A stretch of DNA of 64,000 nt from Microvirga sp. Lineage in GTDB: Bacteria; Pseudomonadota; Alphaproteobacteria; Rhizobiales; Beijerinckiaceae. Position 1 is the first letter of the stretch; each line of letters starts with the position of its first letter. The notes under the pieces were generated by a model that was given only the letters and a program-made list of their open reading frames with translations, was not told where the DNA came from and ran no database searches. Location of the stretch: positions 1-64,000 of the forward strand of contig NZ_JACXAB010000009.1 of assembly GCF_014699075.1 (NCBI RefSeq), written 5' to 3'. A program made the translations under genes and the position numbers. Below are positions 14,879 through 36,301 of the stretch, piece after piece.

Positions 14879-15088
14879 TCAGTTCAGGATCTGTTTGGTG
14901 GCGACGATCCGGAAGGGGGTCGAGGCCATGAAGCTGCCGGCGGCGATGAGCTGGACGAGCGCCTCCTCGACCTCGCCGGTGGCGAGAGCCGAGCCGTCGA
15001 AACCGAACAGCCCGAGGATGAGGGCCGACAGGCCAATCAGGTTAGACCAGACCGTACGGCTGGCCAGAATGGTTTTGGTATCGAACAT
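14879..15088 (-). CDS. holin-like small membrane protein of the GTA/prophage lysis module
   Basis: 69 residues from MFDTKTILASRTVWSN, with two hydrophobic stretches (LIGLSALILGLFGF and ALVQLIAAGSFMASTPF) joined by an acidic turn. Size and topology fit small holin-type membrane proteins that accompany phage endolysins, and the ATG is one base after the stop of the muramidase gene. It would let the muramidase reach the cell wall. Holin assignment is inferred from size, topology and neighbour. Confidence 0.65.
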   Translation of the reverse strand: MFDTKTILASRTVWSNLIGLSALILGLFGFDGSALATGEVEEALVQLIAAGSFMASTPFRIVATKQILN

Positions 15089-15089
15089 G

Positions 15090-15635
15090 TCAAACGCTCC
15101 TGGAGTGAAGGGGTGGAGAAGAAGCAAGCCGCAGAGCCCCCTGCTCGACGGCGAGAACCCGCCTGCGCCAGCCGCGCCCGAAGACGGGCCAGGCGGCAAG
15201 GCGCCCGAGAAAACCGAGGCGGGCCCGGGTCAGGCGGCGGATCGTTTCCGCGGGATCGGCCCCCCCCAAGGCCGCCTTCAGGGTCACGGGACCGATGATC
15301 CCATCCGCCGGAACCCTGAGGATGCTCTGGAGCATGCGTGCGGCCCTCTCAGGGCCGGAATTCACGGCAAGATCGAAGACGGCGAGATCGATCCCGGACG
15401 GCAGTTCATCGGCGCGCAGCACATCCCAGTAGAGCCTTCGATAGACCGCAACGGCTTCCGTCCGGGTCAGCTCCCGCACGTCATCGATTGAGACAGGACG
15501 CCCCCTTGCTCGGGACAGGGTTTCGCGGGTGATGCCGAACTTCGTCGCCCCGCCCGGATCCCTGGGGTGGTCCACGAACCCGCCCTCGTGCTGCAGCACC
15601 AGTTCGACCGCCCGATGAAAGCGCGATGCGCTCAT
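15090..15635 (-). CDS. GH108-family N-acetylmuramidase (GTA/phage endolysin)
   Basis: 181 residues. The N-terminal catalytic region LVLQHEGGFVDHPRDPGG-ATKFGIT carries the conserved Glu of GH108/secretion-activator muramidases, followed by EAVAVYRRLYWDVLRADEL and a C-terminal peptidoglycan-binding-like part (LRVPADGIIGPVTLKAAL). It would cleave the glycan backbone of peptidoglycan to release particles. I start at MSASRF, which follows an AGG ribosome site; a GTG four codons upstream overlaps the DUF2793 stop. It joins the lysis genes to the GTA tail genes. Confidence 0.85.
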   Translation of the reverse strand: MSASRFHRAVELVLQHEGGFVDHPRDPGGATKFGITRETLSRARGRPVSIDDVRELTRTEAVAVYRRLYWDVLRADELPSGIDLAVFDLAVNSGPERAARMLQSILRVPADGIIGPVTLKAALGGADPAETIRRLTRARLGFLGRLAAWPVFGRGWRRRVLAVEQGALRLASSPPLHSRSV

Positions 15636-15643
15636 GGGCGACC

Positions 15644-17182
15644 TCACAGTTCCGCCTCAAGCGCGATGAAGGCGTCGGGCCCAAGATGGAGGTTGCCGAC
15701 GCCGCCTGCTGCCGCAGTGAACGTGGAACCGGCCCGAAACCGCAGAACGGGGCACGAGGCGCTTGGGGGCGTTGCGGTCGTCACCGTCAACGCACCGGTA
15801 AGAGCGGCCCAGACCGCGCTGCTGTTGCTGAAGAAGCCAGCTTGATTGCCCACAGGCGGTGCATTCACCCAGGCGAACCCGCTGGTGACGAGCGTGGGAT
15901 CGGCCCGCATGGGCACCGGCAGGGTGCACACCGCATCGATGATGTTCATGCCGACGCGCTGCGCAACATAGCCGAGAATGCCGGGCGCCCCACCGGTTGT
16001 GGCGAGACGCTGGTAAGTGCGGCGGCAGCGATACTCCTCGATATCGAGAGGCGGCGCCCGCCAGGGCGTTGCCTGAGCGCCCACTTCCAGCTTCACATGC
16101 TTGAACGAGCAGGCGGCACTCGGTTGAAGGCGCAGCGTGATGTTGCCGCTCTCTCCGCCGTCGAGGGTCACGCTCGCGGCCTGACGCCCGGAGCCGGCCG
16201 GGATCGTGGCGGTCTTGGAGCCGATGACGACCGGCAGCGGCGCGGAGGGGTTCTCAACCGAGACGGTCAGCGTTGCGCCCGCAAGATTGGCCGCGCCGAA
16301 CTCGGCCGCCGCCTGCGCGGCATCGATCACATGCTCGATGGCGCCCGCCAGCGTGATGGTGCCATCGGTCGCGCGCATGACGCTGCAGCCGCCCGGCCCA
16401 CCCTTCCAGCGATCAAAGCCGAAAACGCCCTCTCCCAAAGCTCCGCCGGCGAACCGGCGCTGGTTCACCACGAGCGCGGCATTGATCAGCAGATTGGCGC
16501 GCGGCGCGTCGGACAGGCCGCACGGAAACGACGCGATGTCGGTCCGGCGGTCGATTACGAGCGCATCGCGCCACAGTCTTCCATCGAGGGAGACGCGTAT
16601 TGAAAAATCGTCGCTGCCGATGAGGCCTGTTTCCGCGCGTCCGCTGAAGCCGCGCTGGCAGAGCTGCGAGAGAACGTTCGCCTCTGTGCTCTTGTTGAGC
16701 ACGAAACGCAGGTCTCCGGTTCCTCCCTCGTCCGTTGCCAGTGCCGCAAACAGCGCCGCGTTGAGTTTCGCCGAGAGCCGGTTCAACCCATCGGCGGAGG
16801 TGCCGAGGCCGAGCCGCTGCAGGTTGTGGATCTCGTCGGGAATTGAGCCGAAGATCCTCCATTCGTTCCTGTTGAAGACGACAACCAGGTCCTCGTTCTC
16901 CACATAGGCCCGCCACCCGGGTTGCGGCGGGAAGAAGCGCCAGAGCCCAAGATCGAATAGGGCAACGTGATCCTCGTGGCCGGCGAAGGCGCCGGTGGCA
17001 TTCGCCCCGATGAGGTAACGATCGCCCTCCTCGGGCGTGGCCGTAGGCGCGGTGCGGTTGCGCTCCTTCACTGCCAGCTGCACGAGGGCATCGAGGGCGG
17101 CGAGCGCCTCGTTATGGGTGACATGCTTTTGCGCCTGCGCGGCAGCGATGAGCGGCAGGGCGAGATGAGGCGTCGATGACAT
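15644..17182 (-). CDS. DUF2793 domain protein, GTA-associated
   Basis: 512 residues from MSSTPHLALPLIAAAQAQKH. The N-terminal 110 residues are the DUF2793 signature (THNEALAALDALVQLAVKER, EGDRYLIGANATGAFAGHED, NEDLVVVFNRNEWR), found next to RcGTA-like and related phage tail genes. The rest looks like a beta-rich structural or receptor-binding module (SAACSFKHVKLEVGAQATPW). Likely a tail-tip or fibre component acting outside the cell. It is separated from gp15 by a 340-bp block of palindromic repeats. The reading frame is intact. Confidence 0.8.
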   Translation of the reverse strand: MSSTPHLALPLIAAAQAQKHVTHNEALAALDALVQLAVKERNRTAPTATPEEGDRYLIGANATGAFAGHEDHVALFDLGLWRFFPPQPGWRAYVENEDLVVVFNRNEWRIFGSIPDEIHNLQRLGLGTSADGLNRLSAKLNAALFAALATDEGGTGDLRFVLNKSTEANVLSQLCQRGFSGRAETGLIGSDDFSIRVSLDGRLWRDALVIDRRTDIASFPCGLSDAPRANLLINAALVVNQRRFAGGALGEGVFGFDRWKGGPGGCSVMRATDGTITLAGAIEHVIDAAQAAAEFGAANLAGATLTVSVENPSAPLPVVIGSKTATIPAGSGRQAASVTLDGGESGNITLRLQPSAACSFKHVKLEVGAQATPWRAPPLDIEEYRCRRTYQRLATTGGAPGILGYVAQRVGMNIIDAVCTLPVPMRADPTLVTSGFAWVNAPPVGNQAGFFSNSSAVWAALTGALTVTTATPPSASCPVLRFRAGSTFTAAAGGVGNLHLGPDAFIALEAEL

Positions 17183-17228
17183 GAAAGAATGTGCTCTGGT
17201 TAAAGAGTGAAAGCGGTCGTGCGTCTCA

Positions 17229-17516
17229 CACGTCATCACCGGCCCTGTGCCGGTGATCTCGATTTGAAGAGCGCGGCACGATCCTCATCGGGATGGCCGG
17301 CACAGGCCCGGCCATGACGAAGCGGATGTCATCCCCGGCGCACGAAGTGTGGGAAGGGGAGCCACCCGCACACGCAGTGCCATGGATACCCTTCCCCTCC
17401 GCTGCGCGTCCTCCCGGGAATGACACCCTCCCACGTCATCCCCGGACTCGTTCCGGGGATCCACGTCTTAGAGCTTCGAAAACGTGGATGGCTGGGACAA
17501 GCCCGGCCATGACGTA
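17229..17516. repeat. three adjacent palindromic repeats (families D, A, E)
   Basis: The gap between gp15 and the DUF2793 gene is filled by repeats. 17229-17321 is family D (CATCACCGGCCCTGTGCCGG to CCGGCCATGACG). 17327-17425 is a diverged family A unit ending CGGGAATGACAC. 17431-17516 is family E (CGTCATCCCCGGACTCG to AAGCCCGGCCATGACG, with ACGTGGAT hairpin arms). Each is an imperfect palindrome of about 90-100 bp. No gene is visible here. Confidence 0.8.
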
Positions 17517-17523
17517 GTGGGTA

Positions 17524-19272
17524 TCAGCGCACAGAGATCGTGACACGCCGCTCGAAGCCGCGGCCTGCGATGGCGCTCATCTGTGCGACGGCGAGTGCAA
17601 GTGAGGACTGAGCAGCGCCGAAATCGGCGATCTCCTGCACTTGTGTATAGAGGATGGATGGCTGCGTGCTCGTGATCCTCCTTGCCACCTGACCACCCTT
17701 GAGGATGTCGATCTCATAGGCCTCCGCGTCCTCGGAGAGCGGCACGTCCACGGCCTCCCAGCCGTCGCCGTTGCGGCGCGTGCGGCGGATCCAGGCGCCA
17801 TATTCCGTCCAGTCGGCCGCATAGACGATTTTCGTCGAGGCACGCAGGATCGCGCGCACATCCTGCGCAAGCTCCCGCAGCCGCGCGACCGCCGGATAGA
17901 CGCCCGAGGCGGAGTGCACGCGGGTGAGGCCGACGAGTTCGCTACCCAAAATGAAGCCGTGCACGCCACCCGCCTGTTCGGCCAGCGCTGCATAATGCAG
18001 GACCATGCGGTTGAAGCCGTCACTGCGCGTGAACCATCGGTTCACCTGCGTGGCAGCGGCGCTCGTTCCATCGGGGGATCCCGCCTCTCCCGGCGCAGGA
18101 TGGCAGGTGATGCGTCCGCGCCAGGGATAGGCCGGCTGCCCGGTGCCGCCATACGGGTCAGGCAGATCATTGCCGGCAGGCACGTCCATCATCACGAAGG
18201 GATAGAGCACCACCTCAAGGCCGCGCTCCTTCAGGTTGCGGATCAGCCGGATCACGCTCTCGTCCGAGGGCGTGCCGCCATAGGCCGGTGCGCCCTTCAC
18301 GAGCGAGACCGCCTTCGCATCCTCCCGCGTCAGCCCGGCTACCGACCAAGTTGCGCCGTCGGTGGTCTTGGTCTTCACATCCACACGCGGCTCGATGAGG
18401 CAGGAGCCGGCGCGCAGGTCGTCGCCGAACCAGCCCACCACGAGGGACACGCGCTTGAGGTTCGGGCACAAGGCTTCAAGAGCATCCAGCGATGCCGCGA
18501 CATCGCTTGAACGCTGCAGCTGGTGGCGGTTCTCCGGCCGCGTCTTGCCGAGATCGAGCACCTGCATCACGGGCTGCGCGTCATAGCCGAACTCGCTTGC
18601 GCCAGGGATGAGGCACACGGCGCGCACCATGCGGTTGAGCCCGTCGACAGGGCGCACGACCTCGAAGGAGAATTGCGGCACGCGGTTGCCAAAATCGGCG
18701 AGCGGCAGGCGCTCGAACACCACATAAGCCAGTCCGCGATAGGCGGGCGCATGATCCGCGCCCTCCTTGGCGACGATGAGCGGATCGGCACTTTGCGTGT
18801 CGCTTCCCTTGTGCACCCGCATGGTGAGCGTGCTCAGATCGAGCTCGCGCCCGTCGGCCCAGACCCGGCGGATGAACCCGATGCGCCCCTCGCACAGCCC
18901 GACCGCAAGATTGGCGAAATAGGAATAGCTGGTGGTGACGGTCTTCGGGCCGCTCATGCCCTTGCCGCCCTGGCTGCCGCGGTCGGTAGCGGTGTTCACC
19001 ACCTCCTCCAGACGCGTCGCCCAGATGAGTTGGCCGCCGATGCGCGCTCGGCCATAGACCCGCGGGATCGGCGCGCCCTCCGTGGAGGTGAGTCCGTCGA
19101 TGTCCTTGAGGCGCGGGCCTTCCACATGTTTGGTGTCACTGCCGGAAAAGAGCGCGTTGTCGATGGCGCCCCCCGCCAGGGCGCCAAGCGCACGCCCCGC
19201 CATGGCGCCGATCGGTCCGCCGACCATGCCGCCCACGACGGAGCCGACGGTTTGAAGAACGATGGTGGCCAT
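17524..19272 (-). pseudogene. GTA gp15-like tail host-specificity protein with large internal deletion
   Basis: The start MATIVLQTVGSVVGGMVGGP and the following 490 residues match the N-terminal part and TIM-barrel-like domain of GTA gp15 (ILGSELVGLTRV, LAQDVRAILRASTKIVYAAD). After WTEYG (about residue 490) the sequence jumps straight into the family's C-terminal end (IRRTRRNGDGWEAVDVPLSE, ADFGAAQSSLALAVAQMSA). The product is 582 residues against roughly 1300 in RcGTA-like clusters, so about 700 residues appear missing at a junction near base 17790. The frame stays open. In intact GTAs this protein forms the tail tip. The product is probably non-functional. Confidence 0.8.
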
Positions 19273-19700
19273 GAGGGTGCATCCGGAAAACGAAAGGCAT
19301 GGGACAGGTGACGCCGCCACCAGGGACGGAACGCGACTTCCGCAACCGCCGCCCCGTCATGGGCGTGGATCATGGTGTCGGGCGATGTCGCGACGGCGCA
19401 GTGCTTAGCCGGCAGGTTGTCGCGCCAGCGGAAGAGCAGCACGTCGCCGGCCGTAGCCTGCGTGCAATCGATCTCGATGAGATGCTTTCGCGCGGCCGCG
19501 ACAAGCGTATCGGCCCCGGCCTCCGCCCAATCGGGCGAGTACGGCGGCGGCAGCTCGGGCTCCGCCCCCATGACACCGCGCCAAACGCCGCGCAGCAGCC
19601 CGAGGCAGTCGCAGCCGACGCCTTTCAGCGAGGCCTGATGACGATAGGGTGTGCCGATCCAGGAGCGGGCTTCGGCGATGATGAGATGTGGTGAGGGCAT
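18996..19700 (-). CDS. GTA gp14-like NlpC/P60 peptidase, reads 91 codons into gp15
   Basis: The first 142 residues form an NlpC/P60 cysteine peptidase of the GTA gp14 type: catalytic Cys in GVGCDCLGLLRGVWRG, His in AKHCAVATSPDTMIHAHDG, and the usual end HLSHAFRFPD. Such tail peptidases cut peptidoglycan during DNA entry. The family normally stops at the gp15 start. Here the codon overlapping the gp15 ATG is TCA (19272-19274), where TGA would give a normal TGATG overlap, so the frame runs 91 more codons in a shadow frame of gp15 and adds an Arg/Ser-rich tail. Probably a lost stop codon. An ATG two codons upstream (19706) is an equally possible start. Confidence 0.75.
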   Translation of the reverse strand: MPSPHLIIAEARSWIGTPYRHQASLKGVGCDCLGLLRGVWRGVMGAEPELPPPYSPDWAEAGADTLVAAARKHLIEIDCTQATAGDVLLFRWRDNLPAKHCAVATSPDTMIHAHDGAAVAEVAFRPWWRRHLSHAFRFPDAPSWPPSFFKPSAPSWAAWSADRSAPWRGVRLAPWRGAPSTTRSFPAVTPNMWKARASRTSTDSPPRRARRSRGSMAERASAANSSGRRVWRRW

Positions 19701-19724
19701 GACCATAAAACGTGCGGCAGCACC

Positions 19725-19897: not shown

Positions 19898-20788
19898 TCA
19901 CCGGAAGAAGCTCCCGCCATCCAATCCCGGCTCGCCCTGCTGCGGCATGCGGATGATGAAGTCGTTGCCGAGCATGTGCGGAAAGCCGCGGAAGTTTGCA
20001 GCGTTGTCGAACTTCCTCCGGCACATGCCATGGGTCTTGTCGCAGCCCGCCGTGACGCGGAACGTGTCACCGATGTTGATGGGCTGAGGCGCGCGCTGCC
20101 ACAGGTCGAACTCGTCCGTGCCGTTGATCGCCCGGTGCACCTTGATCTCGACGGACACACCTGCGTTGTCGCCGACGATCCAGGTGAGCCTGCCCGCATT
20201 GCACCATCCGTCTGCAAAGCCGATGCCGGAGGCGGCGATGCTCAGCGCACCATCCGTGCGCGTGACCGTTCCGGTGTCGGAATAGATGGACGCGGTGAGG
20301 TTCACGCCGCATTGCGCATTGCCGAGATCAGCCGAGCAGGTGGCGCGGAAGAGCCGCCCGCGCTCCTCGTCGAAGCGGTGCGTGAGCCCCCGCACCTCGG
20401 CCACGAAGCTGCCGTCGGCCCGGCGGATCTCACCGATGGAGCCGATGTCCAGGAGCACGCGCTCCTCCACATTGCTCCAGTTGACGAGCCAGGTCTCCAC
20501 GCTCGCATCGTCATAGAGGCCGGACGCGATGTCATCCTCGGTGAGCCCTGCGGAGATGAGCGCGCCCGCCACCTCGCCGCCGCCGACCGCGAAACCAAGT
20601 TCGGCGGTGGCTTCCGCTGCCTCCAACCCCGAGCGCGCCGCATAGGGGGTGCCGCTGAAGCTGATGTCGCGATCATGATCGGTAAACCCGAAGGCAACGC
20701 CGTCGCGCCGGATGAGCCGCCAGCAATGGCACAGCGTCGTCGTTCCCTCGGCCAGATGGGCAGAGAGGTTTTCAGGAATGGTGCGCAT
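19898..20788 (-). CDS. GTA gp13-like tail hub protein (DUF2163)
   Basis: 296 residues from MRTIPENLSAHLAEGTTTLC. It has the DUF2163/BR0599-type features of GTA gp13: CWRLIRRDGVAFGFTDHDRD near the start and the cysteine-rich C-terminal signature TAGCDKTHGMCRRKFDNAAN followed by FRGFPHMLGNDF. These proteins form a hub in the baseplate; structural work on RcGTA, as I recall, found an iron-sulphur site in one hub protein, which fits the Cys cluster. The frame is intact. Family C and family E/B repeats flank it. Confidence 0.88.
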   Translation of the reverse strand: MRTIPENLSAHLAEGTTTLCHCWRLIRRDGVAFGFTDHDRDISFSGTPYAARSGLEAAEATAELGFAVGGGEVAGALISAGLTEDDIASGLYDDASVETWLVNWSNVEERVLLDIGSIGEIRRADGSFVAEVRGLTHRFDEERGRLFRATCSADLGNAQCGVNLTASIYSDTGTVTRTDGALSIAASGIGFADGWCNAGRLTWIVGDNAGVSVEIKVHRAINGTDEFDLWQRAPQPINIGDTFRVTAGCDKTHGMCRRKFDNAANFRGFPHMLGNDFIIRMPQQGEPGLDGGSFFR

Positions 20789-20833
20789 GGATGGCCTTGA
20801 AATGTGTTGAGATGTCCGTCGCCTCACCCTCTT

Positions 20834-21050
20834 CGTCATGGCCGGGCTCGTCCCGTCCATCCACGTCTTCAGATTGTTTCGTCCACCTCCAGCCTCATCC
20901 TGAGGAGGTCACGCAGTGGCCGTCTCGAAGGAGGCTCCAGAGAGCACTGGAGGATCCTTCGAGACGCAGCCTGCGTCTGCTCCTCAGGATGAGGCTGAAG
21001 AGGCGGATAAGAAGGCGTAGATCCCCAGAACAAGTCCAGGGATGACATAG
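20834..21050. repeat. family E repeat with a family B repeat nested inside
   Basis: The left half of an E unit (CGTCATGGCCGGGCTCGTCC, CATCCACGTCTTC) at 20834-20876 and its right half (AGATCCCCAGAACAAGTCCA, GGGATGACA) near 21018-21050 are separated by a complete family B unit at about 20893-20998 (CCTCATCCTGAGGAGG to CCTCAGGATGAGG). B therefore seems to have inserted into E. No gene is visible in this 197-bp gap. Confidence 0.75.
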
Positions 21051-21057: not shown

Positions 21058-21696
21058 TCAGGGCACGATCTCGATCAGCGGGATCTGCGGGATGCCGCCG
21101 GCGTCGAAGGTGGAGAGGTCGATGTCGAGCTCGTCCGTGTCGAAGCGAACCGGCACGTCGAAGGCGAAGCCCGCCGTGACGATGGCACTGGCGGGCGGCG
21201 CGGCCACGAAGGTCACGATGCCTGTTGCAGGGTCGCAGTTGAACTGCGCGCCTACCGCCTGCTCCACTCCGTTGAGCGCCACCCGCACCGTGCCGCCGAC
21301 CGGCTTGGCGATGCTACGGCTGTAGGGCGCGAAGGCGGAGCCATAGGCCTTCACCAGCTGGAAATTCCGTTCCGCCCCGGTGCCGGTGCCGATGCGCTGG
21401 TCCAGCGGCGTCGGCTCCTTGGAGGGCGGGCCGGAGCGCCAGTCGGTGCGGTCGCGGAAGCGAAAGCCGTAGAGCCTGCCGCGCCGCTCCTCGAAGAAGG
21501 CGATCACCGTGTGCAGCGCATCGACGGTCCTGATCCCGAGCCCCGCATCGTAGCGGTGGCGCGAGCCGGCCCAGCGGCTGTTGCGGTGCTCGCGGCCGGA
21601 GGCGAGCGTGACGATATCGGTCCGCCGCACGGGCCCGCCCCGGCTGCCGAGGCTGACGTCGAGGGGAAAGCGGACCTCGTGGAAGTCTGAGGCCAT
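21058..21696 (-). CDS. GTA gp12-like distal tail protein (DUF2460)
   Basis: 212 residues from MASDFHEVRFPLDVSLGSRG, the typical DUF2460/gp12 opening. Further family features are RTDIVTLASGREHRNSRWAG, ALHTVIAFFEERRGRLYGFR, FRDRTDWRS and the C-terminal FDVPVRFDTDELDIDLS. It forms the distal tail ring between tube and baseplate in RcGTA-like particles. The frame is intact. Its start region is divergent to a plus-strand YdcH-like gene 81 bp away. Confidence 0.9.
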   Translation of the reverse strand: MASDFHEVRFPLDVSLGSRGGPVRRTDIVTLASGREHRNSRWAGSRHRYDAGLGIRTVDALHTVIAFFEERRGRLYGFRFRDRTDWRSGPPSKEPTPLDQRIGTGTGAERNFQLVKAYGSAFAPYSRSIAKPVGGTVRVALNGVEQAVGAQFNCDPATGIVTFVAAPPASAIVTAGFAFDVPVRFDTDELDIDLSTFDAGGIPQIPLIEIVP

Positions 21697-21777
21697 AGGG
21701 ACATCCTGAAGGTTGAAACGAAAGAACCGGGGTGGCGTTGACGAGGCGCAAGCCATTCAACACGGAGGCGGCCCGCG

Positions 21778-22023
21778 ATGAGCAATGCTCCCAACGACCT
21801 GGCGCAGGATTTCCCGGACAAGGTCGACCGGATCCACCAGCTGAAGACGAGCAACGGCCGCTTCGCGCGGCTCTACGATGAATACGACGAGCTGAACCGC
21901 ACCATCCACCGCGTCGAGACCCGGGTGGAGCCGACCACCGACGAAGCGGAGGAAGAGCTCAAGCGCCGCCGCCTGCAGATCAAGGACGAGATCATGGCGA
22001 TGCTGGAGGTCAAAGAGGCTTGA
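21778..22023 (+). CDS. YdcH family (DUF465) small coiled-coil protein
   Basis: 81 residues, almost entirely charged alpha helix (LKTSNGRFARLYDEYDELNR, TTDEAEEELKRRRLQIKDEI), which is the DUF465/YdcH pattern. The function of this family is unknown; it is a small soluble cytoplasmic protein. It is on the plus strand inside a minus-strand GTA cluster, between gp12 and the tape-measure gene, so it is not part of the virion operon and was probably inserted or left behind by rearrangement. Confidence 0.85.
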   Translation: MSNAPNDLAQDFPDKVDRIHQLKTSNGRFARLYDEYDELNRTIHRVETRVEPTTDEAEEELKRRRLQIKDEIMAMLEVKEA

Positions 22024-22375: not shown

Positions 22376-23059
22376 TCACATCCCGCGCTGGCCCCGCGCA
22401 ACCGCCCGAGCCAGCGCAGCCGACACCTGCGCCTCGGAGCGGCGGAAGCTGTCCGCATCCGGGGTCGTGACATTCACGGTCACCGAGACCGGCCGGCCTC
22501 CCGCGCCGCCCCGCACGCCGAGGCGCCCGTCCGGCCCGCGGGCCAGCGGCATCACGGCCTCCGCCCCTTGCTCGCCCATCAGGCCGAGCCCGCGTCCGAG
22601 CGGAAAATAGGTTGGCGCGCCGACAACCCCGCCCTTGGCGAAGGGCATCAGCATGCCGCGGGAGCGCACGCCACCCTTGGCCAGCGCAGGGCCGCCGGCG
22701 CCGAATAGGGAGCCTAGGATTGAGCTCAACCCCTTAGCCAATCCGCCAAGAAGCCCGCCGCCATCCATCGGCAGCGAGCCATGAAGAGCGCCCGTCATCA
22801 TGCCCTTCACGCTCTGGCTTAAGGCGAGCTGCAGCGGCGCCAGTGCCAGCCGAAGCCCCGTTTCCACAAGTGATTGGCGCACGGATTTCAGAACGTCATA
22901 AAATTTTTTGCCTTCCGAGACATTCTTGGCGAATGCATTGGACAGAGAGTCACCGAACTTTTCGGAGAGGCCGATGAGAGTGTTGAGCTAGCGAGCGCGA
23001 TCTTTCTCCGTCTCATCATTCGGGCTTACCTTAGGTGGGCCGATTGGTTCTGTTGACAT
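22376..23059 (-). pseudogene. GTA gp11-like tape-measure protein gene with in-frame TAG
   Basis: Reading from ATG at 23057-23059 gives MSTEPIGPPKVSPNDETEKD and then RAR, a TAG at 22988-22990 (codon 24), and 203 further codons in the same frame (LNTLIGLSEKFGDSLSNAFA, SVRQSLVETGLRLALAPLQL, ending ALARAVARGQRGM). The total of about 227 codons fits the short gp11 tape-measure/tail protein of RcGTA-like clusters (about 220). Glycine-rich hydrophobic parts and GEQGAEAVMPLARGPDGRLG are typical. A GTG at 22882 could start a 168-residue fragment. Upstream, three foreign plus-strand genes separate it from gp10.1. Confidence 0.75.
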
Positions 23060-23372: not shown

Positions 23373-23462
23373 ATTATGAGAGCGTTGAGCTGGCGTTCTC
23401 TATCTTTATCGATCTCTGATTTCGGAGATTTGTCTTTGGAAGCTTGGTTATCATCAGCCAAG

Positions 23463-23741
23463 ATGTATCCCCTTATATCTTTTGTATTTCTGCTTGCCCT
23501 CCTTACCGGCTGCAACACAACGGCAAGGCCAGATTTTGTTTTCAAGCGACAAGGCTTGTCTCAACAACAGTATTCGCAAGCCGAAGCAGAGTGCGAATTG
23601 GAGGCTGAAAAGACTGCGATCCAGGCCAAAAACAGCGTCACGGCCGGAGAAAACTGGCGGAAAATCTTTGTGCTCTGCATGGAAGCGAAGGGCGCCCATT
23701 ACCTTGGGACAACTGACCAAATCAATCGGCTGGGATCATGA
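23463..23741 (+). CDS. small lipoprotein, tandem family member 2
   Basis: 92 residues from MYPLISFVFLLALLTGC, a lipoprotein signal peptide with lipobox LLTG-C. The mature domain has EAECELEAEKTAIQAKNS and KIFVLCMEAKGAHYLGTTD, sharing the conserved Cys, the E/A/K-rich helix and the motif EAKGA-x-x-LG with its two neighbours. The frame can be extended 29 codons upstream but the signal peptide fixes the start. It overlaps the next gene by zero to two bases. It is AT-richer than the GTA genes around it. No known family recognised; of the three it is the only intact copy. Confidence 0.65.
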   Translation: MYPLISFVFLLALLTGCNTTARPDFVFKRQGLSQQQYSQAEAECELEAEKTAIQAKNSVTAGENWRKIFVLCMEAKGAHYLGTTDQINRLGS

Positions 23742-26401: not shown

Positions 26402-26540
26402 GTCATTCCGGGGCTGCGTAGCGGAGCCCGGAATCCATAAATACTAGGTCTCAGGAAAGAGCGAGCGGCGGTGCGCCTCGGTCTGCACCGTTAGCGGTTA
26501 TGGATTCCGGGCTCGCCTTCGGCACCCCGGAATGACGGTG
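26402..26540. repeat. palindromic repeat, family G
   Basis: Left arm GTCATTCCGGGGCTGCG then GAGCCCGGAATCCATAA; right arm TTATGGATTCCGGGCTCG then CACCCCGGAATGAC, with about 55 bp between. It is distinct in sequence from family A but has the same design: outer CATTCC/GGAATG and inner ATGGATTCC/GGAATCCAT arms. It lies between gp6 and gp7. Confidence 0.8.
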
Positions 26541-27117: not shown

Positions 27118-27142
27118 CGGAAACAAGGATCCTTGTGCTGTC

Positions 27143-29025: not shown

Positions 29026-30261
29026 TTACGCCGCGAACTTCAGCAGCTTGATCGCCGCGTAGTCCTGCACGCCGCCGCCCACGCGCTTGGTGGTGTAGAA
29101 CAGCACATAGGGCTTGGCGGAATACGGATCGCGCAGCACGCGCATGCCGGCGCGGTCCACCACGAGATAACCGCGCTTGAAGTCGCCGAACGCGATGGCG
29201 CAGGCGTTCAGCGCGATGTCCGGCATGTCCTCTGCCTCCACCACGGGGAAGCCCATGAGCGTCGCGGCCTGGCCGATGCTCGCGGGCGGTGCCCAGAGGT
29301 ACTGACCGTTGTCGTCCTTGAAGCGGCGGATCGCGCTCTGCGTCTTGCGGTTCATCACGAAGGCGGCGTTCTGGCGATAGCCGGATTTCAGCGTGTAGAT
29401 CAGATCCACCAGCACGTCGGACGGATTTTCCGCCGGGAAGGTCGCCCCGCCCGTGTTCACCGTGCCGAGGCGGCCCTATTCCCAGATTTCGTTCTCGACC
29501 GTGTCGGTGGTGAGAAAGCCCTTGGGCTTGTTCAGGCCGTCGCCGTTGACGAAGGCGGCGCTTTCCTGCTCGGCGAAGGCGGATTCCACCTCCTCGGCGA
29601 TCCAGCTCTCGATATCGACCACCGCATCGTCGAGCAGGGTCTGGGTCGCGGCCGGCATGGCGTAGAGCTCCATGGCCGGAAAGCTCATCTCGGAGAGCGT
29701 GGGGCTCGCCGTCTGCGGACGCGCGGCCGTCTCGCCGACCCAGCCGGTGGCCGGGCCCGTGGTGGAGAAGGCGCGCTTGTACTGGCCACCGGAGATCACC
29801 CGCACCGACGAGATGGCGCGGATCGGCGACACATTGGCGAGGCGGCGCAGCACCTCGCGCTCAACCGTGTCGGGCACGAGATAGCCGCCGTCGGGGCCGG
29901 AGCCCGCCGAGAGCGCCTTCTCCTCCAGCCGCTTGAGGCCCGTGGCCTCGCCGCTGCGGACATACGCATGGAACGCACTCTTGTGCTTGGCCTGAACCGG
30001 ATCGCGTGGAGCGTCCGTGCCGCCGAGCGGCGGGCGGGAGCGGTCGAGGGCGAGACGGTCGAGGCGGCGCTTGGCGTCGTCGAGGGCAGTGTCGATGCGG
30101 GCGAGCTTCTCGTCCGTCACCACATCGCCGGTGAGCCTGGTCTCGATCTCGGACAGGCGCGTGTCGTTGGCATCCTTGAACGCCTCGAAGGCGCGGGCAA
30201 AATCCTCGAAGGCCGAGGCGACATCGTCGGACACGGCTTTGGTTTCAACAACGGGAATCAT
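29026..30261 (-). pseudogene. GTA gp5-like HK97 major capsid gene with in-frame TAG
   Basis: From MIPVVETKAVSDDVASAFED the sequence is an HK97-fold capsid protein: an N-terminal helical scaffold region (ANDTRLSEIETRLTG, about residues 1-75), then SGPDGGYLVPDTVEREVLRR, RVISGGQYKRAFSTTGPATG and AEQESAAFVNGDGLNKPKGF. At codon 262 the frame meets TAG (29476-29478) inside VENEIWE-stop-GRLGTV and continues in the same frame for 150 codons to the normal C-terminus (GDFKRGYLVVDRAGMRVLRD, AIKLLKFAA). Relatives have Trp here (WEWG as I recall), so TGG to TAG is likely. Without suppression only a truncated, non-assembling protein is made. Confidence 0.85.
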
Positions 30262-30296
30262 CACAATCCATAGGTTTGAAAGGAACAGCTTAGGAA

Positions 30297-30352
30297 ATGA
30301 GCATCGGATGGATCCGAAAAGCGGAATCCCCTTTTTGGCCCGATGCTCCAAA
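30297..30352. repeat. partial family F repeat
   Basis: A half unit of the element at 14361-14468: GAGCATCGGATGGATCCG, AAAAGCGG and GGCCCGATGCTC form a hairpin about 36 bp upstream of the capsid start. Confidence 0.65.
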
Positions 30353-30902: not shown

Positions 30903-31438
30903 TCAGGAAAACAGTCTGGCGGCGGTGCTACGAATATGGGTAGCGAGCTTCGGGGCCGTTTGCTTGACGGCTTCGACCCGCGCGCCGGGCAGCATCGGAA
31001 AGGTCACAACCGAGATCTCCCACAGGTCGAGCCGCTCCAGGCGACGCAAACCGGTCGGCCTCTCGGCCCTGGCCCGCTCGACGCGAAAGCCGATGGAGAG
31101 CCCGTCCACGGCTCCGTCGCGCATGAGGGCAAGGATGTCCCGTGCCCGTTCGACCGCAAGGTTGAGCTTGCTGCGCACGCGCAATCCGCGCAGATCCTCC
31201 GCGATGGAGAGCCAGCGCCCGATGGGCTGCGCCGGGTCGTGCTGCCAGAGCAGGCGCACCTGCGCGGCGCTGCGTTTCTTAAGGAGTCGCGGAAGGCGCC
31301 GGGCATCACCACGTCCTTGCCGAGATCGGCGTCGCCGAACAGGCTGGAATAGCCCTCGAACACGCCATCCGTGTCGACGCCGCTCAGGGGCTCGGGCAGG
31401 AACTTGCGCTCGCGGACAGTCGTTGCGGCCGCCATCAT
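30903..31438 (-). pseudogene. GTA gp4-like HK97 prohead protease with frameshift
   Basis: The first frame begins MMAAATTVRERKFLPEPLSG and reaches DLGKDVVMPGAFRDSL. The second frame continues KKRSAAQVRLLWQHDPAQPI, GRWLSIAEDLRGLRVRSKLN, AVDGLSIGFRVE and DLWEISVVTFPMLPGARVE, which are the HK97 prohead protease hallmarks including His and Ser of the active site. The two frames join at about 31281-31284, where one missing base explains the shift (TCCTTAAG where TCCCTTAAG would restore it). The total of 536 bp is one short of 179 codons. The enzyme that would mature the capsid is therefore probably lost. Confidence 0.82.
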
Positions 31439-31584
31439 CGCGCGGCCCCGCGGGCGGTTTTCGGCGGCTTCACATCAAGCTTTTCGAGCTGGCGCACGAA
31501 GTCGCGGAACACGAGCGTGGCGCGGGTCTGGCTCTCCCGCGCCGCCTTTGGCTTGCGCGGAGTGCGGGATGAAAGGCGGGTCAC
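31435..31584 (-). CDS. small basic protein between GTA gp3 and gp4
   Basis: A 49-residue frame from GTG (VTRLSSRTPRKPKAARESQ) through ATLVFRDFVRQLEKLDVKPP to its TGA, which overlaps the gp4 start. Its start overlaps the stop of the next gene upstream. The four-base overlaps on both sides and the open frame indicate a real operon member. Rich in Arg and Lys; no family recognised. It could be a short scaffold or accessory protein of the head. Confidence 0.55.
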   Translation of the reverse strand: MTRLSSRTPRKPKAARESQTRATLVFRDFVRQLEKLDVKPPKTARGAAR

Positions 31585-31781
31585 GAGGGATCTCCCGAGT
31601 GGCGGCGGTTGAACATGGACAGCTCGCGCACGAACGCATCGAACCGGCGGTTGGCCGCGAACAGGTCGCGCAGGGTCATGGCAAGCAAGGCGGACGCCCC
31701 GCTGGCCCAGACGAACAGGGCTAGATGGGCAAGATCCCCGCGCCGAATGACGGCCTCGGTGATCTGGTCAAGTGAGTTCAT
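31581..31781 (-). CDS. small membrane protein between GTA gp3 and gp4
   Basis: 66 residues from MNSLDQITEAVIRRGDLAHL with one membrane helix (LALFVWASGASALLAMTL) and a basic C-terminus (AANRRFDAFVRELSMFNRRH). A short hypothetical membrane protein at this place is a recurrent feature of RcGTA-like clusters in Rhizobiales as I recall. Its stop overlaps the GTG of the next small gene. Function unknown. Confidence 0.6.
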   Translation of the reverse strand: MNSLDQITEAVIRRGDLAHLALFVWASGASALLAMTLRDLFAANRRFDAFVRELSMFNRRHSGDPS

Positions 31782-31839
31782 GATTTGTTCTCGTGAAAAG
31801 CTCCGTTGGGCGTGGTTTGGGCAATACGCGTAGTCCTTG

Positions 31840-31942
31840 TTGTCATTCCCGGCCGGAGCGTAGCGGAGGGAAAGGGGATCCACTCACACGCGCAGCGCTA
31901 TGGATCCCCTTCCCTCGCCTTCGGCTCGCCGGGGATGACACG
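31840..31942. repeat. palindromic repeat, family A (left flank of the GIY-YIG gene)
   Basis: Complete unit from TGTCATTCCCGGCCGGAGCG to CGCCGGGGATGACACGG, with inner arms GGGGATCCACTC and TATGGATCCCC. The copy on the other side of the GIY-YIG gene (32284-32384) is inverted relative to this one. Confidence 0.85.
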
Positions 31943-31987
31943 GGGTTCTAGGCATGTGCTATGAAGTTGCACCTCAAGGCGTCTCTC

Positions 31988-32278
31988 ATGGGCAAGCACT
32001 ACGCTGTCTACATTCTAGCCAGCGGGAAGAACGGCACGCTGTATATCGGCGTTACAAGCAGCCTCCTGCAGCGCATAGTTCAGCATAAATCCCTCGCCGT
32101 TCCAGGGTTCACAAAGCGCTATCGCATCACAAGACTTGTGTACGTCGAGGTCTTTGCAAACGTGAATGAAGCAATTGCTCGCGAGAAGCAGCTCAAGGGC
32201 TGGAACAGAGCATGGAAGATCAAGCTTATCGAGCAATCGAATCCAAACTGGGATGATCTGGATCCGACTGCCTGCTGA
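31988..32278 (+). CDS. GIY-YIG nuclease superfamily protein
   Basis: 96 residues from MGKHYAVYILASGKNGTLYI. The two short signatures are present as YAVYIL and LYIGVT, about 10 residues apart, followed by the helix with the catalytic-type Arg (SSLLQRIVQHKS) and the conserved Glu near EAIAREKQLKGWNRAWKIKL. This is the single-domain YhbQ/UPF0213-like type that often travels with mobile or repeated DNA. The gene is on the plus strand between gp3 and the small GTA genes and is bracketed by two oppositely oriented family A repeats. Likely a cytoplasmic DNA nuclease; target unknown. Confidence 0.9.
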   Translation: MGKHYAVYILASGKNGTLYIGVTSSLLQRIVQHKSLAVPGFTKRYRITRLVYVEVFANVNEAIAREKQLKGWNRAWKIKLIEQSNPNWDDLDPTAC

Positions 32279-32416: not shown

Positions 32417-33589
32417 CTACGCCCGCCTCCCCTTGCCACCCTCAACACGCCCATACCCCACCGCCTCGCGCTTCTCGTCATCGCTGAGGAACGCCGCCGC
32501 CGACACGCGCCGCCAGAGGCTTTCGCGTTCATCCGCCAGCGCTTCGATGGCATCGAGATCAGGCTCGAGGGCAAGCGTCTCGCGATAAGCGGGTGTGAGC
32601 CAGTGCGCCAGCGCCTCGGCCGTGCGTTTCACCAGCGGGATCACCGTCTGGCGGTAGAAGGCACGGTTGGCCTCCGCGTAGTTCGCATGCGTGCTGTCGC
32701 CGGGCAGGCCGAGCAGCAGGGGTGGCACCCCGAAGGCGAGCGCGATCTCCCGCGCGGCGGCGGCTTTCGCTTCCACGAAGTCCATGTCCTTCGGCGAGAG
32801 CGACAGCGGCTTCCAGTCGAGGCCGCCTTCCAGCAGCAGCGGACGGCCCGCATTGCCGGCGCCCTGATAATTGGTTTCCAGCTCTCCTTTCAGCCTGTCG
32901 AACTGCGCATCGGTGAGCGTCGCACCGCCGACCACCAGTGCGCCGGAGGGCCGCGCCGCATTGTCGAGAAGCGCCTTGTTCCAGGCACCTGCCGCGTTGT
33001 GGATGTCGAGCGCGGTGGCGGCTGCTTCCATCGGCGACAATCCGTAATGATCGTCCGCCGGATGGAACAGCGTCAGATGCAGGATCGGCGCCAGGATCTC
33101 GTCGCGGATCGGGAAGCGCACGGATTGTGTGCCGACCGCATATTCATAAGCCGCCGGCCAACCATCGGCATCGGGCACCACGCGCATGCGGTCGGGGCGC
33201 AGCGCGTCTATCTCGTGCGGCGCGCCGTCGAGGCTCACCGCCTCCACATAGGCGTTGCCCGATACCATCAGGTGTCCGTAAAGACTCTCGAGAAAGCGCT
33301 GCCCGCCCTCCCGCGCATTCGGCCACGCGAGCAGCGACAGCAACGGATGCGACGGCAATTCCCTGCCCTGGCTCATGAGCACCAGCGGCAGGGACGCCGC
33401 CGCCTCGCTCATCAGGCGCACCGCGCGGTGCACGACGGCGTTCTTCTGGAAGCCCTCGCGGGAGAGCGCCGCATAATCGCGCGGCGTCCACACGGGCCGT
33501 CCGGCGACATAGAGCGCAATGGCGCCCTGCGCCCGCGAGGCCTTGGCCTCCAGCGGAACTTGGAGCCAGCGGGTCAATCGATTCAGCAT
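32417..33589 (-). CDS. GTA gp3-like HK97-family portal protein
   Basis: 390 residues from MLNRLTRWLQVPLEAKASRA. Portal features are GFQKNAVVHRAVRLMSEAAA, LYGHLMVSGNAYVEAVSLDG, HYGLSPMEAAATALDIHNAA and ALAFGVPPLLLGLPGDSTHA, NYAEANRAFYRQTVIPLVKR. It forms the dodecameric ring through which DNA is packaged. The frame is intact and of normal length. Repeats lie on both sides and interrupt the usual gp2-gp3 spacing. Confidence 0.93.
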   Translation of the reverse strand: MLNRLTRWLQVPLEAKASRAQGAIALYVAGRPVWTPRDYAALSREGFQKNAVVHRAVRLMSEAAASLPLVLMSQGRELPSHPLLSLLAWPNAREGGQRFLESLYGHLMVSGNAYVEAVSLDGAPHEIDALRPDRMRVVPDADGWPAAYEYAVGTQSVRFPIRDEILAPILHLTLFHPADDHYGLSPMEAAATALDIHNAAGAWNKALLDNAARPSGALVVGGATLTDAQFDRLKGELETNYQGAGNAGRPLLLEGGLDWKPLSLSPKDMDFVEAKAAAAREIALAFGVPPLLLGLPGDSTHANYAEANRAFYRQTVIPLVKRTAEALAHWLTPAYRETLALEPDLDAIEALADERESLWRRVSAAAFLSDDEKREAVGYGRVEGGKGRRA

Positions 33590-33707
33590 GAAGTGGTCCT
33601 GCCTTGGTGAAGCGTGAGGGATGAAGGGTGTCGCGGTGCGAGAGCGATGCGATCCCGCGCCATCCCAAAACGTGTTCGGGGGAACCACGTCTTCGCCGTC
33701 CACCTCT

Positions 33708-33818: not shown

Positions 33819-34364
33819 GGGAGATAAAAGGTTCATAGACGCGGGTTGGCGGCACAAGGCCAGGGACGACGCGAGGTGCCCACCGCGGCTTCAGCATGCC
33901 GCTAACTTCCGCAGCCTATGACCGTAAAGCAGGCACATCCGCAGCGTTCGTCATTGGCGCGTCACATACCCCAGAGTAATTTTGAGATGTTGCAGGGGCA
34001 CCCGGCGACATTCACGCGCCAGCCGGGCTGGTTTCCCCGGACCGGCTGGCGCGACCATCGGTTTCTCGAGCTCTGTCGTCGACGCCGGCGGCATGAGGCA
34101 GATGGCGGGGCGGATCGGCACGGATGGACTGCCATCCGCCCCGGCCCTGCAGCCATGATCCCCGCAACGACCTCCTATCCTTCCGAGACCATGCTGGCGC
34201 GAAAGGTTCACCCCATCAGGAGCCTTGAGGATTTTTTTCAACCGCTTAGCTTATGCCGGGTGGCTTCACTTGTTGCCCCTACGGGAGCCACGGCGCCCCG
34301 GCTGGAGATGTGCGTGAACACCACCCTTCGGCTGGGGCGTTCTTTTTGATCGCGTCACATCCGC
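33819..34364. other. 546-bp stretch without a convincing gene
   Basis: Between a family B and a family A repeat. Frames open on both strands (33918-34349 plus, 33951-34241 minus) give Arg/Pro-rich sequences with no recognisable motif and no good ribosome site. In related GTA clusters gp2 and gp3 lie close together, so this may be remnant or inserted DNA. I see no RNA gene or terminator of good quality. Confidence 0.5.
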
Positions 34365-34365
34365 T

Positions 34366-34470
34366 TTGTCATTCCCGGCCGGAGCGCAGCGGAGGGGAAG
34401 GGAATCCATTAGGTCGCGCGTGTGACTGGATCCCCTTCCCTCGCCTTCGGCTCGCCGGGGATGACACGGC
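34366..34470. repeat. palindromic repeat, family A
   Basis: Complete unit from GTCATTCCCGGCCGGAGCGC to CGCCGGGGATGACACGG, with inner arms GGGAATCCATT and CTGGATCCCC, about 20 bp downstream of the gp2 stop. Confidence 0.85.
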
Positions 34471-34488
34471 GCATTGCAAGGCAATTGA

Positions 34489-35862
34489 TCACAATACCCG
34501 CACCCTGGGCTCGCGGCGCTCGCGCAGCATCAGCTCGGTGAGGGCCCAGACCAGCGCATCCATGCGGTCGGGCGAGCGGCCGGAGGTGAGGCCGCCGGGG
34601 CCGAAATCGCAGAGCTCATCCTCCAGCTCCGGCAGCGCGCCCACATGGCGCACGCGGTTCTGCGCATAGAGCACGGAGACCGGCTCGGCGCGAAGATATT
34701 TGCCCCGCGTGGCGCGCACGCTCACCACCGGCACGGACGGGTCGACCTCGCGGATCACGTTGCCCACCATCTCGCCGCCCTGGTTCGTCTCGACCACGAG
34801 CGCATCGGCCTGCAGCCGTCGATACAGCGCCACGGCCTTCGCGGCCCATTCGGGCGGCTTCAAGCTAGATGCCGTCGCATCCTCCAGCACATAAGCCATG
34901 CCGCCTTCGTCCACCCCGGCCGCGACGATCCCGCAGGCGTTCGCCCGCTTCGACGATGAGGCCGGCGGATCGACCGCCACGACGATGCGCATGAGAGAGG
35001 GCGCCGCGTCGATGCGGTTGCGCTCGATCACCTCGCGCGTCCACAACGCATCGGGGCGATCCTCGATGATGTCGCCGTCGAGTTCCTGTCGTCCGAGCCG
35101 CGTGCCCACATAGCGGCGCACCACGGTGTCGAGAAAGGCAGGCGCGAGGTTGTCTGCATTCTCGGCGGTGCGCATGCGCGACACCGCCACCGAAGGGTCG
35201 CTAAGAAACCGTTTCAGGATCGGAATCGGCCGCGGCGTGGTCGTCACCATCTGGCGCGGATGCGCGCCGAGGCGCAGGCCGAACTGCAGCATGTCCCAGG
35301 TCTCTTCCACGTGCCGCCACTTGGCGAGCTCGTCCGCCCAGGCGGCTTCGAATTGCGGGCCGCGCAAGGAGTCCGGATCTTCCGCTGAGAACACCTGCGC
35401 GACCGCGCCGTTCGCCCATTCGAGCTTGCGCAGCGACGGCGACCAGGTGGGGCGTTCATGGCGCGCATGGGCGGCCAAGATACCGGCCGGCCCCTCCACC
35501 ATCACGTTGCGGGCATCAGCAAATGTTTCGCCCACGAGCGCGATGCGCCGCGAAGCGCCTGCCCCGAACTCGGGATCGCCCAGCGCGATGCCGCGCACCC
35601 ATTCGGCGCCGGTGCGGGTCTTGCCCGCGCCGCGTCCGCCGAGGATGAGCCAGGTCGTCCAGGGGTCGTGGTGCCGGGCCAGACCCGGCAGGCGCTGCTC
35701 GGGCCGGCAGCGCATCGGCCAGAAGCGGAGAACAGTCTCGAAATCGCGCTCAGACCAGGAGGCCGCCGCGTCCGCGAGACTCCTCCTCCGCGATAACCCG
35801 GTCAAGGTGGCGAGCAAGCTCCTCGCGGAGTTCGTGCAGGCTGCGCCGGGGTCTGTTGTCAT
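34489..35862 (-). CDS. GTA gp2-like large terminase
   Basis: DNA-packaging motor, 457 residues from MTTDPGAACTNSARSLLATL. The ATPase Walker A is ILGGRGAGKTRTGAEW (near residue 70-85) and the Walker B region is FEAAWADELAKWRHVEETWD. The nuclease part shows IVVAVDPPAS, ADALVVETNQGGEMVGNVIR and the final GRSPDRMDALVWALTEL. All hallmark motifs are intact. The start is uncertain: this ATG overlaps gp1 by about 110 bp and shorter starts would need rare codons. As the frame is open upstream, the N-terminal 30 residues are provisional. Confidence 0.93.
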   Translation of the reverse strand: MTTDPGAACTNSARSLLATLTGLSRRRSLADAAASWSERDFETVLRFWPMRCRPEQRLPGLARHHDPWTTWLILGGRGAGKTRTGAEWVRGIALGDPEFGAGASRRIALVGETFADARNVMVEGPAGILAAHARHERPTWSPSLRKLEWANGAVAQVFSAEDPDSLRGPQFEAAWADELAKWRHVEETWDMLQFGLRLGAHPRQMVTTTPRPIPILKRFLSDPSVAVSRMRTAENADNLAPAFLDTVVRRYVGTRLGRQELDGDIIEDRPDALWTREVIERNRIDAAPSLMRIVVAVDPPASSSKRANACGIVAAGVDEGGMAYVLEDATASSLKPPEWAAKAVALYRRLQADALVVETNQGGEMVGNVIREVDPSVPVVSVRATRGKYLRAEPVSVLYAQNRVRHVGALPELEDELCDFGPGGLTSGRSPDRMDALVWALTELMLRERREPRVRVL

Positions 35863-36301
35863 GGGGCTCGGTGTCATCGAGCGGTGAACTTTCCTGTTCC
35901 AGAAGCGCCCGCGCGGCTGCCAGCGTCTTCGCATAAGACGCGAGCCTGCGGGCGGTCTTGTCGTGATCCTTGGCGCGGCCCGTGCGCTGCTCGTCCATGA
36001 GCGCGTCGATCTGCACCCGCGTGGCCTGGGCGAGGGGGCGCGCCGCATCGTTGACCGAAGCGGCGGCGGCCTTCGCCAACCCGGCCACGCCGCCTTCGTT
36101 CTTTGCGGCCTTGCTCAAGGCGTTCTCGTTGGGAGCCGCCTGACGCGCCGGCCAGCCCCAGCGCTGGCGCATCCGAACGAAGGTACCGGCACTCACGCCG
36201 AGAAAGGCCTGGATGTCGGTCAGGAGCTTGTCCGGCTGGCAGGCGTAGATCTCCCAGCCCTGCTGCCTCTGCTCGTCCGTAACTTCGATTCTTTGGGGCA
36301 T
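35750..36301 (-). CDS. GTA gp1-like small terminase
   Basis: 183 residues from MPQRIEVTDEQRQQGWEIYA. The N-terminal helix-turn-helix (KLLTDIQAFLGVSAGTFVRM-RQRWGWPAR) binds DNA, and the C-terminal half is helical (RRSLHELREELARHLDRVIA). It recruits DNA to the large terminase. First gene of the GTA cluster. The 12 bp before this ATG follow an intrinsic terminator and contain no good ribosome site; the frame is open to an ATG at 36388, which would add 29 low-quality residues and span the hairpin. The start and expression signal are therefore odd. Confidence 0.85.
   Translation of the reverse strand: MPQRIEVTDEQRQQGWEIYACQPDKLLTDIQAFLGVSAGTFVRMRQRWGWPARQAAPNENALSKAAKNEGGVAGLAKAAAASVNDAARPLAQATRVQIDALMDEQRTGRAKDHDKTARRLASYAKTLAAARALLEQESSPLDDTEPHDNRPRRSLHELREELARHLDRVIAEEESRGRGGLLV

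Follow-up and report, generated by a model that had tools for sequence, protein, structure and literature searches.

A recently broken gene transfer agent cluster in Microvirga and the older proteases nested within it

Are gene transfer agents (GTAs) kept by selection, and what follows their loss? A GTA cluster in a Microvirga genome raises this question together with another: did the opposite-strand genes and repeats inside the cluster arrive because it is decaying, or were they there before? The window analysed is a 64-kb stretch, the first part of a 147-kb contig from a 6.62-Mb genome available as a 101-contig draft. It carries a complete head-tail gene set of the type known from the Rhodobacter capsulatus GTA (RcGTA), running on the minus strand from 36388 down to 15090. 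A sequence-only reading had described this set as a decaying cluster that served as a landing zone for insertions. The explanation favoured here, with high confidence, is that this vertically inherited cluster, the sole one found in the genome, was broken very recently, that the proteases and the DUF465 gene on its opposite strand are older residents, and that its palindromic repeats are independent of the decay.

The cluster contains gp1, the terminase, portal, gp3.5, prohead protease, capsid, gp6 to gp15, a DUF2793 tail-fibre-like gene and a GH108 muramidase. Pfam matches on the minus strand follow the RcGTA order: terminase, portal, HK97 capsid in two halves, connector, head completion, tail completion, tail tube, tail assembly chaperone (TAC), DUF2460, baseplate hub, GTA_TIM, DUF2793 and GH108. 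The genes gp1 to gp15, placed through comparison with 42 relatives, stand in canonical order on one strand. Inheritance is vertical and syntenic and not that of a sporadic prophage. The tail tube gene gp9 is present in 43 of 48 Microvirga genomes, the window's included, and a GTA-type capsid is present in 116 of 199 genomes sampled from the family (119 capsid genomes minus three whose only match was prophage-like, below 50% identity). The structural genes are not all intact, the exceptions being gp4, gp5, gp11, gp14 and gp15. The cluster is a member of the RcGTA type by descent, not by function. A back-up GTA copy was rejected because a portal search of the genome found no second GTA portal, the sole other match reaching 29% identity across one third of the query.

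The five lesions, called against the frames of the 42 Microvirga relatives, are real in this assembly. First, gp4 (30903-31438, minus strand), which from its position we take to be the prohead protease, changes frame near 31274-31283 and is matched by two tblastn pieces in different frames; the fragment tested has no Pfam match. Second, gp5, the HK97-type capsid gene (29026-30351, minus), has an in-frame TAG at 29476-29478 with PF05065 matched in both halves. Third, the tape measure gene gp11 (22376-23026, minus) has an in-frame TAG near its N-terminus at 22988-22990. This is the weakest case, as the N-terminus is variable and two relatives (G042, G015) have stops near their own N-termini at other places. 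Fourth, gp14 (18996-19706, minus) has lost its stop and reads 234 residues from the aligned start; 36 of 38 genomes stop at 140-142, and the other exception, G043, is frameshifted. Fifth, gp15 (17524-19320, minus) is one open frame that matches residues 1-511 and 1213-1301 of a 1301-residue relative. Some 700 internal residues are missing in frame, so that the GTA_TIM match of gp15 spans only 76 of 299 positions. A loose search without composition statistics, drawn on for gp15, gave mostly chance matches and only its strong rows were used. Intact copies of the lesioned genes are present in relatives. The sequence-only reading had named the canonical one-strand order of gp1 to gp15 plus lysis genes, the gp4 frameshift, the two TAGs, the gp15 deletion and a probable loss of the gp14 stop, with open frames for the terminases, portal, connector, tail tube and hub. 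The order and the lesions were borne out, and open frames were confirmed for gp2, gp3, gp6, gp9 and gp13.

Damage was scored in the relatives for gp3 and gp5 to gp15 except gp10.1, a gene counting as broken when one open reading frame (ORF) covered less than 85% of the reference while all matches together covered at least 90%. The genes gp1, gp2, DUF2793 and the muramidase, cut off in many of the relatives' 20-kb loci, were left unscored, as was gp4, whose reference extends upstream of the likely start. Of the 43 genomes with gp9, eight others are broken (G029, G045 or M. tunisiensis, G033, G027 or M. soli, G043, G040, G002 and G013), at sites that differ from the window's, and none of the 42 relatives is broken in more than three scored genes. 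M. arsenatis (G006) is one of the relatives without a break in a scored gene. Breaks at 86-89% coverage are marginal (gp5 in G020, gp12 in G015, gp7 in G001). G015 shows no match to gp13-gp15 within its 20-kb locus, and the unscored gp2 has an apparent frame change in G009 and apparent early stops in several relatives. With eight broken relatives and five of 48 genomes lacking gp9, damage to the GTA cluster is a repeated event in the genus.

The checks proposed with the sequence-only reading, a comparison with relatives and the ratio of nonsynonymous to synonymous substitution rates (dN/dS) per gene, agree on the timing. None of the window's lesions was seen in any of the 42 relatives. Per-gene dN/dS is 0.07-0.28 between the window and its seven nearest relatives and 0.05-0.28 among those relatives. 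For most genes the window's value is near or below theirs, and gp5 is no exception on either side of its TAG (downstream of it 0.094 versus 0.117 in the clade). Pooled over 13 GTA genes, dN/dS on the window branch is 0.111-0.137 in six comparisons, with a highest bootstrap bound of 0.166, versus 0.099-0.130 on the sister branches. Absence of function for a fraction f of the branch would raise the ratio by about 0.9f, and the upper bound would then put f at about 7% or less. Since the lesions are unseen in relatives and the window-branch ratio resembles that of its sisters, the decay is very recent, at the tip of the branch; recent decay had been one of the two options named by the sequence-only reading. 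Long-standing pseudogenes were rejected because the pooled ratio is not clearly raised. The lesions include the capsid, so no GTA particle would be expected from this strain.

The same purifying selection around and beyond the lesions is what an intact locus would give, and together with the 101-contig draft it might suggest that the lesions are sequencing or assembly errors in a functional cluster. But the lesions are five and unlike one another (two stops, a frameshift, a stop loss and a clean deletion of about 2.1 kb that keeps the frame), they fall within 15 kb with open frames elsewhere, and among the 42 relatives, many of them also drafts, eight are clearly broken, each in at most three scored genes. 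Error on this scale is distinctly improbable.

Six genes on the plus strand are supported: tryp1 (27143-27889) and its paralogue tryp2 (27969-28757, adjoining gp5), two S1 proteases with an apparent export signal and a PF00089 match, lying between gp5 and gp6; the DUF465 gene between gp11 and gp12 (21778-22023, PF04325); the pair ORF121 (23376-23741) and ORF72 (23985-24203); and a GIY-YIG nuclease gene (31961-32278, PF01541 E=1.8e-15). The sequence-only reading had counted seven, and the seventh, an ORF at 33918-34349, is doubtful, with five of 22 matches at least 80% long and free of stops. The remaining 46 Microvirga loci all match tryp1 (40 stop-free and at least 80% long, five with a stop) and tryp2 (37 and eight, respectively). 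In 42 of the 43 Microvirga genomes with gp9, both proteases occupy the interval between gp5 and gp6 in reverse; in the other, G008, gp5 is out of view. DUF465 is reversed between gp11 and gp12 in 39 of the 43. Matches to it, all free of stops, occur in 42 of the 46 other Microvirga loci; it was not found in G002 and G005 (M. arabica), where gp12 is out of view. The family of ORF121, a small lipoprotein-like gene reversed between gp10.1 and gp11 in the window, has a lipobox pattern in 20 of 51 members; ORF72 belongs to it. Its members, in tandem in some relatives, number one to three per locus in 38 of the 47 Microvirga loci, and none occurs in 125 loci of other genera and families.

The protease position is shared well beyond the genus. 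A reversed protease lies between gp5 and gp6 in 18 of 20 GTA clusters from 19 other genera of the family. The two clusters without it (L125, L126) come from genera g18 and g42. In the family sample, the protease is downstream of the capsid on the other strand in 100 of the 116 capsid genomes, at 9-3305 bp (median 229), and on another contig in one; of the 199 genomes, 45 lack a capsid of this type but have the protease, and 38 have neither. Among 40 loci from 38 families outside this one, two (f20, f36) have a protease between gp5 and gp6, 37 have gp5 and gp6 in direct succession (51-820 bp) and one is cut. A profile search with E up to 1e-15 found relatives of the protease in 14 of 111 genomes sampled from the order, three of them of this family. 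Of 80 named loci 68 have the protease between gp5 and gp6, which is no unbiased rate because these loci were picked for having the protease. DUF465 is reversed in four of the 40 loci outside the family and may thus be older or recurrent. The proteases and DUF465 hold matching positions in relatives and so must be much older than the decay, and a recent insertion was rejected for both on the synteny in Microvirga, which for the protease extends across the family.

The proteases also outlast the cluster. Both proteases persist in four of the five Microvirga genomes that lack gp9; the fifth, G034, is a draft in 780 contigs with 92% completeness. G026 retains gp3.5, the proteases, DUF465 and the muramidase, and in G038 remnants of gp5, gp6 and gp10 survive alongside gp3.5, the proteases and DUF465. 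In G018 only the proteases and DUF465 are left within the 20 kb viewed, and in G025 the middle of the cluster is gone. The four genomes sit at four places of the protease-DUF465 tree, printed without support values, so the GTA losses look independent. Their host genes have no stops in the aligned parts, and dN/dS of the kept genes is 0.18-0.25 in G026, G038 and G018. Thus position, persistence and, in three of the four cases, purifying selection of the proteases are observed directly. Of 16 loci in other genera that have the protease without the capsid, 13 hold no other GTA gene. Nine of the 80 named loci, including Methylobacterium and Bosea, have the protease and no GTA gene within up to 10 kb per side (L196 and L240 are short on one side).

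What do these proteases do? The tryp1 triad H60, D106 and S188 is invariant in 15 diverse sequences, in the contexts TAAHC, DLAL and GDSGG. The PF00089 match and a match to trypsin in the PDB (E=5.4e-22) place it in the S1 chymotrypsin fold, the closest solved structures being trypsins and other S1 proteases; NCBIfam gave no match. By eye in the translations, an apparent export signal ends before what looks like an IVGG-type mature N-terminus. Also by eye, the residue six places before the catalytic serine is Ser, Gly or Ala in all 15 rows. This residue is presumably position 189 of the S1 pocket, which is Asp in trypsin proper. With no Asp at the specificity site, cleavage after Arg or Lys is not predicted, and tryp1 would not be a trypsin proper. 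PADLOC matches of the proteases (LmuA at 8.2e-8 and 1e-4, RT-Protease_XI, Avs1b) were read as generic trypsin similarity. A search of 50,697 phage records gave no protease match, and phage cargo was provisionally rejected on this ground; 45 IMG/VR contigs did match. The likeliest role would be proteolysis in the host envelope or outside the cell.

A role in GTA biology was also considered. The embedded proteases might act in particle release, in processing on the recipient side or in self-protection, and be kept by their linkage to the GTA. Their strict place beside the capsid gene (100 of 116 GTA genomes) would fit this, as would the divergent orientation of the protease and gp6 and the higher frequency of the protease in GTA-bearing genomes (101 of 116) than in GTA-less ones (45 of 83). 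The Caulobacter LypABC proteins, needed for GTA-mediated lysis and release in the accessible text of PMC13236601, offer a parallel, but LypA is described there as larger and multidomain. The proteases persist after GTA loss, mostly under purifying selection, and 15 GTA-bearing genomes of g18 and g42 and 37 of 40 loci of other families do without them. On balance a GTA function is unlikely. A variant is that the family-old protease at the capsid-connector junction serves the recipient side of GTA transfer and is kept by non-producers that still receive DNA, for example by processing the recipient surface or protecting non-producing kin; this is quite unlikely too. An independently useful host protease remains the preferred reading.

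The palindromic repeats, patterns A to E, occupy many inter-gene junctions between 17219 and 34471 (about 17.2-17.5, 20.8-21.0, 22.05, 24.9, 25.5, 28.8-29.0, 30.4, 31.85, 32.3, 33.7 and 34.4 kb). Their concentration in the cluster, noted by the sequence-only reading, was confirmed by pattern counts. The 21.4-kb cluster and the remaining 42.6 kb of the window hold, respectively, 10 and 1 of A, 8 and 1 of B, 12 and 0 of C, 9 and 1 of D, and 11 and 0 of E. Family A has 168 copies in the 6.62 Mb, six of them in the gp3-gp14 span where 0.36 would be expected. Over 17 Microvirga genomes, the 16 relatives chosen because their clusters held repeats, the span holds 124 copies versus 9.4 expected, a 13-fold excess (7- to 27-fold in each); 19 of 36 surveyed rows, with totals uncounted, were left out of this test, 14 of them having no family A in the span. 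The repeats come in pairs; counting each pair once gives P of at most 0.016 for every genome. Among the places listed, many plus/minus palindrome pairs lie about 60 bp apart, the inverted-pair arrangement of repetitive extragenic palindromic (REP) repeats. A second repeat-dense stretch lies on contig C90 of the same genome (positions 1-32000; L301, L302), with 14 family A copies in 32 kb and also a GIY-YIG gene.

This excess would speak for a neutral landing zone in which all opposite-strand genes and repeats arrived after decay began, as would the finding of the GIY-YIG gene in only two Microvirga clusters. But the repeats are concentrated also in G014, G017, G032 and G047, where no GTA gene is listed as broken, so decay is not their cause, and the C90 stretch lies elsewhere in the genome. 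For the proteases and DUF465 such an origin is already contradicted, both being syntenic in lesion-free clusters, and for the whole it has a very small probability. The landing zone proposed by the sequence-only reading is thus partly upheld where the repeats and the GIY-YIG gene are concerned, both concentrated in the cluster, and falls for the proteases and DUF465 and for decay as the cause. The cluster is one site rich in repeats rather than a sink driven by decay.

REP and REPIN repeats are associated with the RAYT transposase. A search for RAYT (Y1_Tnp, PF01797) gave no match in the genome, the control being positive in five of 14 genomes including E. coli and Caulobacter, and RAYT was rejected as the mobiliser. 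Three GIY-YIG genes were found in the genome by similarity: the window's, G000:C90:24110-24388 and G000:C13:211049-211321, the last with an in-frame TAA. All three lie between palindromes, of differing family: C and E on both flanks in the window, A at C90, and a further one, seen by eye, at C13. Among other Microvirga loci the window's arrangement, with C and E on both flanks, occurs only in G016 (M. lupini). The placing of all three genes between palindromes suggests the GIY-YIG nucleases as candidate mobilisers of the REP-like repeats. Against this, three more distant GIY-YIG genes (L125, L143, L276) have no A-E pattern within 500 bp. No paper joining GIY-YIG nucleases with REP-like repeats was found in the literature searched.

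Together these results point to the following course of events. A single vertically inherited cluster was under purifying selection until very recently, and several independent lesions, the capsid included, then ended its function and produced a recent GTA-null lineage. The main opposite-strand genes did not land because of decay. In an ancestor within the order tryp1 may have inserted between gp5 and gp6, probably once, and later duplicated to give tryp2. It would be useful to the host in its own right, probably by processing proteins in the envelope or outside the cell, and may stay put because only deletions that spare it are tolerated. In lineages that lost the GTA the structural genes were deleted around the protease, which persists, and DUF465 likewise. 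The palindromes are a genome-wide repeat population that accumulates in the cluster junctions regardless of GTA integrity, with GIY-YIG nucleases as the likeliest candidate mobilisers.

Several observations weigh against this account. Each lesion taken singly could be an assembly error, in a 101-contig draft of one isolate of the species. The window's dN/dS is higher than that of relatives for gp3.5 (0.117 v 0.054), gp12 (0.142 v 0.101), gp14 (0.172 v 0.083), the part of gp11 beyond its TAG (0.268 v 0.152) and the part of gp4 ahead of its frameshift (0.316 v 0.206). Two genomes (G010, G004) lack DUF465 with both neighbours in view, and 15 of the 116 GTA-bearing genomes, all in genera g18 and g42, lack the protease. 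Among the loci with protease and no capsid, three of 16 (L101, L108, L110) still carry other GTA genes. For the kept host genes, dS on the G018 branch is near saturation and protease dN/dS in G025 is raised, at a noisy 0.33-0.49. The host function of the proteases is itself something that we infer. Finally, 45 IMG/VR contigs (L256-L300) encode relatives of tryp1, which leaves some room for a viral source. Some of these contigs may be GTA clusters taken for viruses.

The remaining minus-strand genes complete the inventory. The conserved first gene gp1 (35750-36388), in the small-terminase position, has no match in Pfam, PHROG or NCBIfam and has homologous frames in relatives where in view. It is followed by the large terminase gp2 (34489-36048, PF03237 and PF17289), the portal gp3 (32417-33703, PF04860 E=5.9e-85) and the small conserved ORF gp3.5 (31581-31883, 91% to L039). 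Beyond the capsid and the proteases lie the connector gp6 (26551-27120, PF05135), head completion gp7 (26017-26406, PF05521), tail completion gp8 (25610-26017, PF11367), tail tube gp9 (25025-25435, PF06199), gp10 (24565-24861, 85% to L039) and the TAC gp10.1 (24226-24525, PF09550). Then come gp12 (21058-21756, PF09343), the baseplate hub gp13 (19898-20860, PF09931 and PF09356), the DUF2793 tail-fibre-like gene (15644-17239, PF10983 and PHROG tail fibre) and the GH108 muramidase, a lysis gene (15090-15656, PF05838 and PF09374). The frames of gp2, gp3, gp6 to gp10, gp12, gp13, DUF2793 and the muramidase are open. The genes tested near the cluster are ordinary chromosomal ones (a DegP-like protease, a CcmH/CycH-type protein, a two-component pair, DctP and others). 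Directly upstream of gp1, window positions 36811-39093 on the plus strand hold six imperfect repeats of about 51 residues and then an ORF with cadherin- and RTX-like matches. There is no tRNA within the window and Rfam gave no match at gathering score over 14-37 kb; an insertion site at a tRNA or known RNA was rejected.

One genus thus shows clusters without visible lesions, a freshly broken one and deleted ones side by side, with the break placed at the branch tip by dN/dS. The nested protease serves as an internal control, since it stays under selection while the cluster around it dies, and surveys limited to phage-derived GTA genes would probably miss it. The open GTA literature searched, mostly without subscription papers and without supplements, makes no mention in its accessible text of a trypsin-like or serine protease gene inside an RcGTA-type cluster (PMC9836097 and PMC6821227, both for the term 'protease'; PMC10883770, PMC9662315, PMC7947584, PMC6209664, PMC11409702, PMC13236601). 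GTA decay is already known; an embedded protease that outlives the GTA was not found in the literature searched.

The cluster resembles RcGTA, the Rhodobacter capsulatus model of the alphaproteobacterial type I GTA, in the content and order of gp1 to gp15, the HK97 capsid, the TAC, DUF2460, the baseplate hub and the GTA_TIM protein. It differs in being interrupted by opposite-strand host genes, in having five broken genes and in placing the DUF2793 gene and muramidase after gp15. The repeats share with REP and REPIN elements the short palindromes, inverted pairs and intergenic sites but lack a Y1_Tnp match in the genome and have GIY-YIG genes between their copies. As in Caulobacter, where by the accessible text of PMC13236601 two of the LypABC proteins (LypA, LypC) have trypsin-like domains, a trypsin-fold protease is linked to a GTA. 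LypABC is described there as resembling a CARD-NLR defence system; the Microvirga proteases, unlike LypABC, are single-domain, apparently exported and inside the GTA cluster. Pseudogenisation, loss and 'cheater' lineages of GTAs in Alphaproteobacteria are already described in the accessible part of PMC10883770, and Microvirga shares with them recent pseudogenes beside relatives with intact and lost clusters. It differs from the cases described there in that the nested host genes outlive the cluster.

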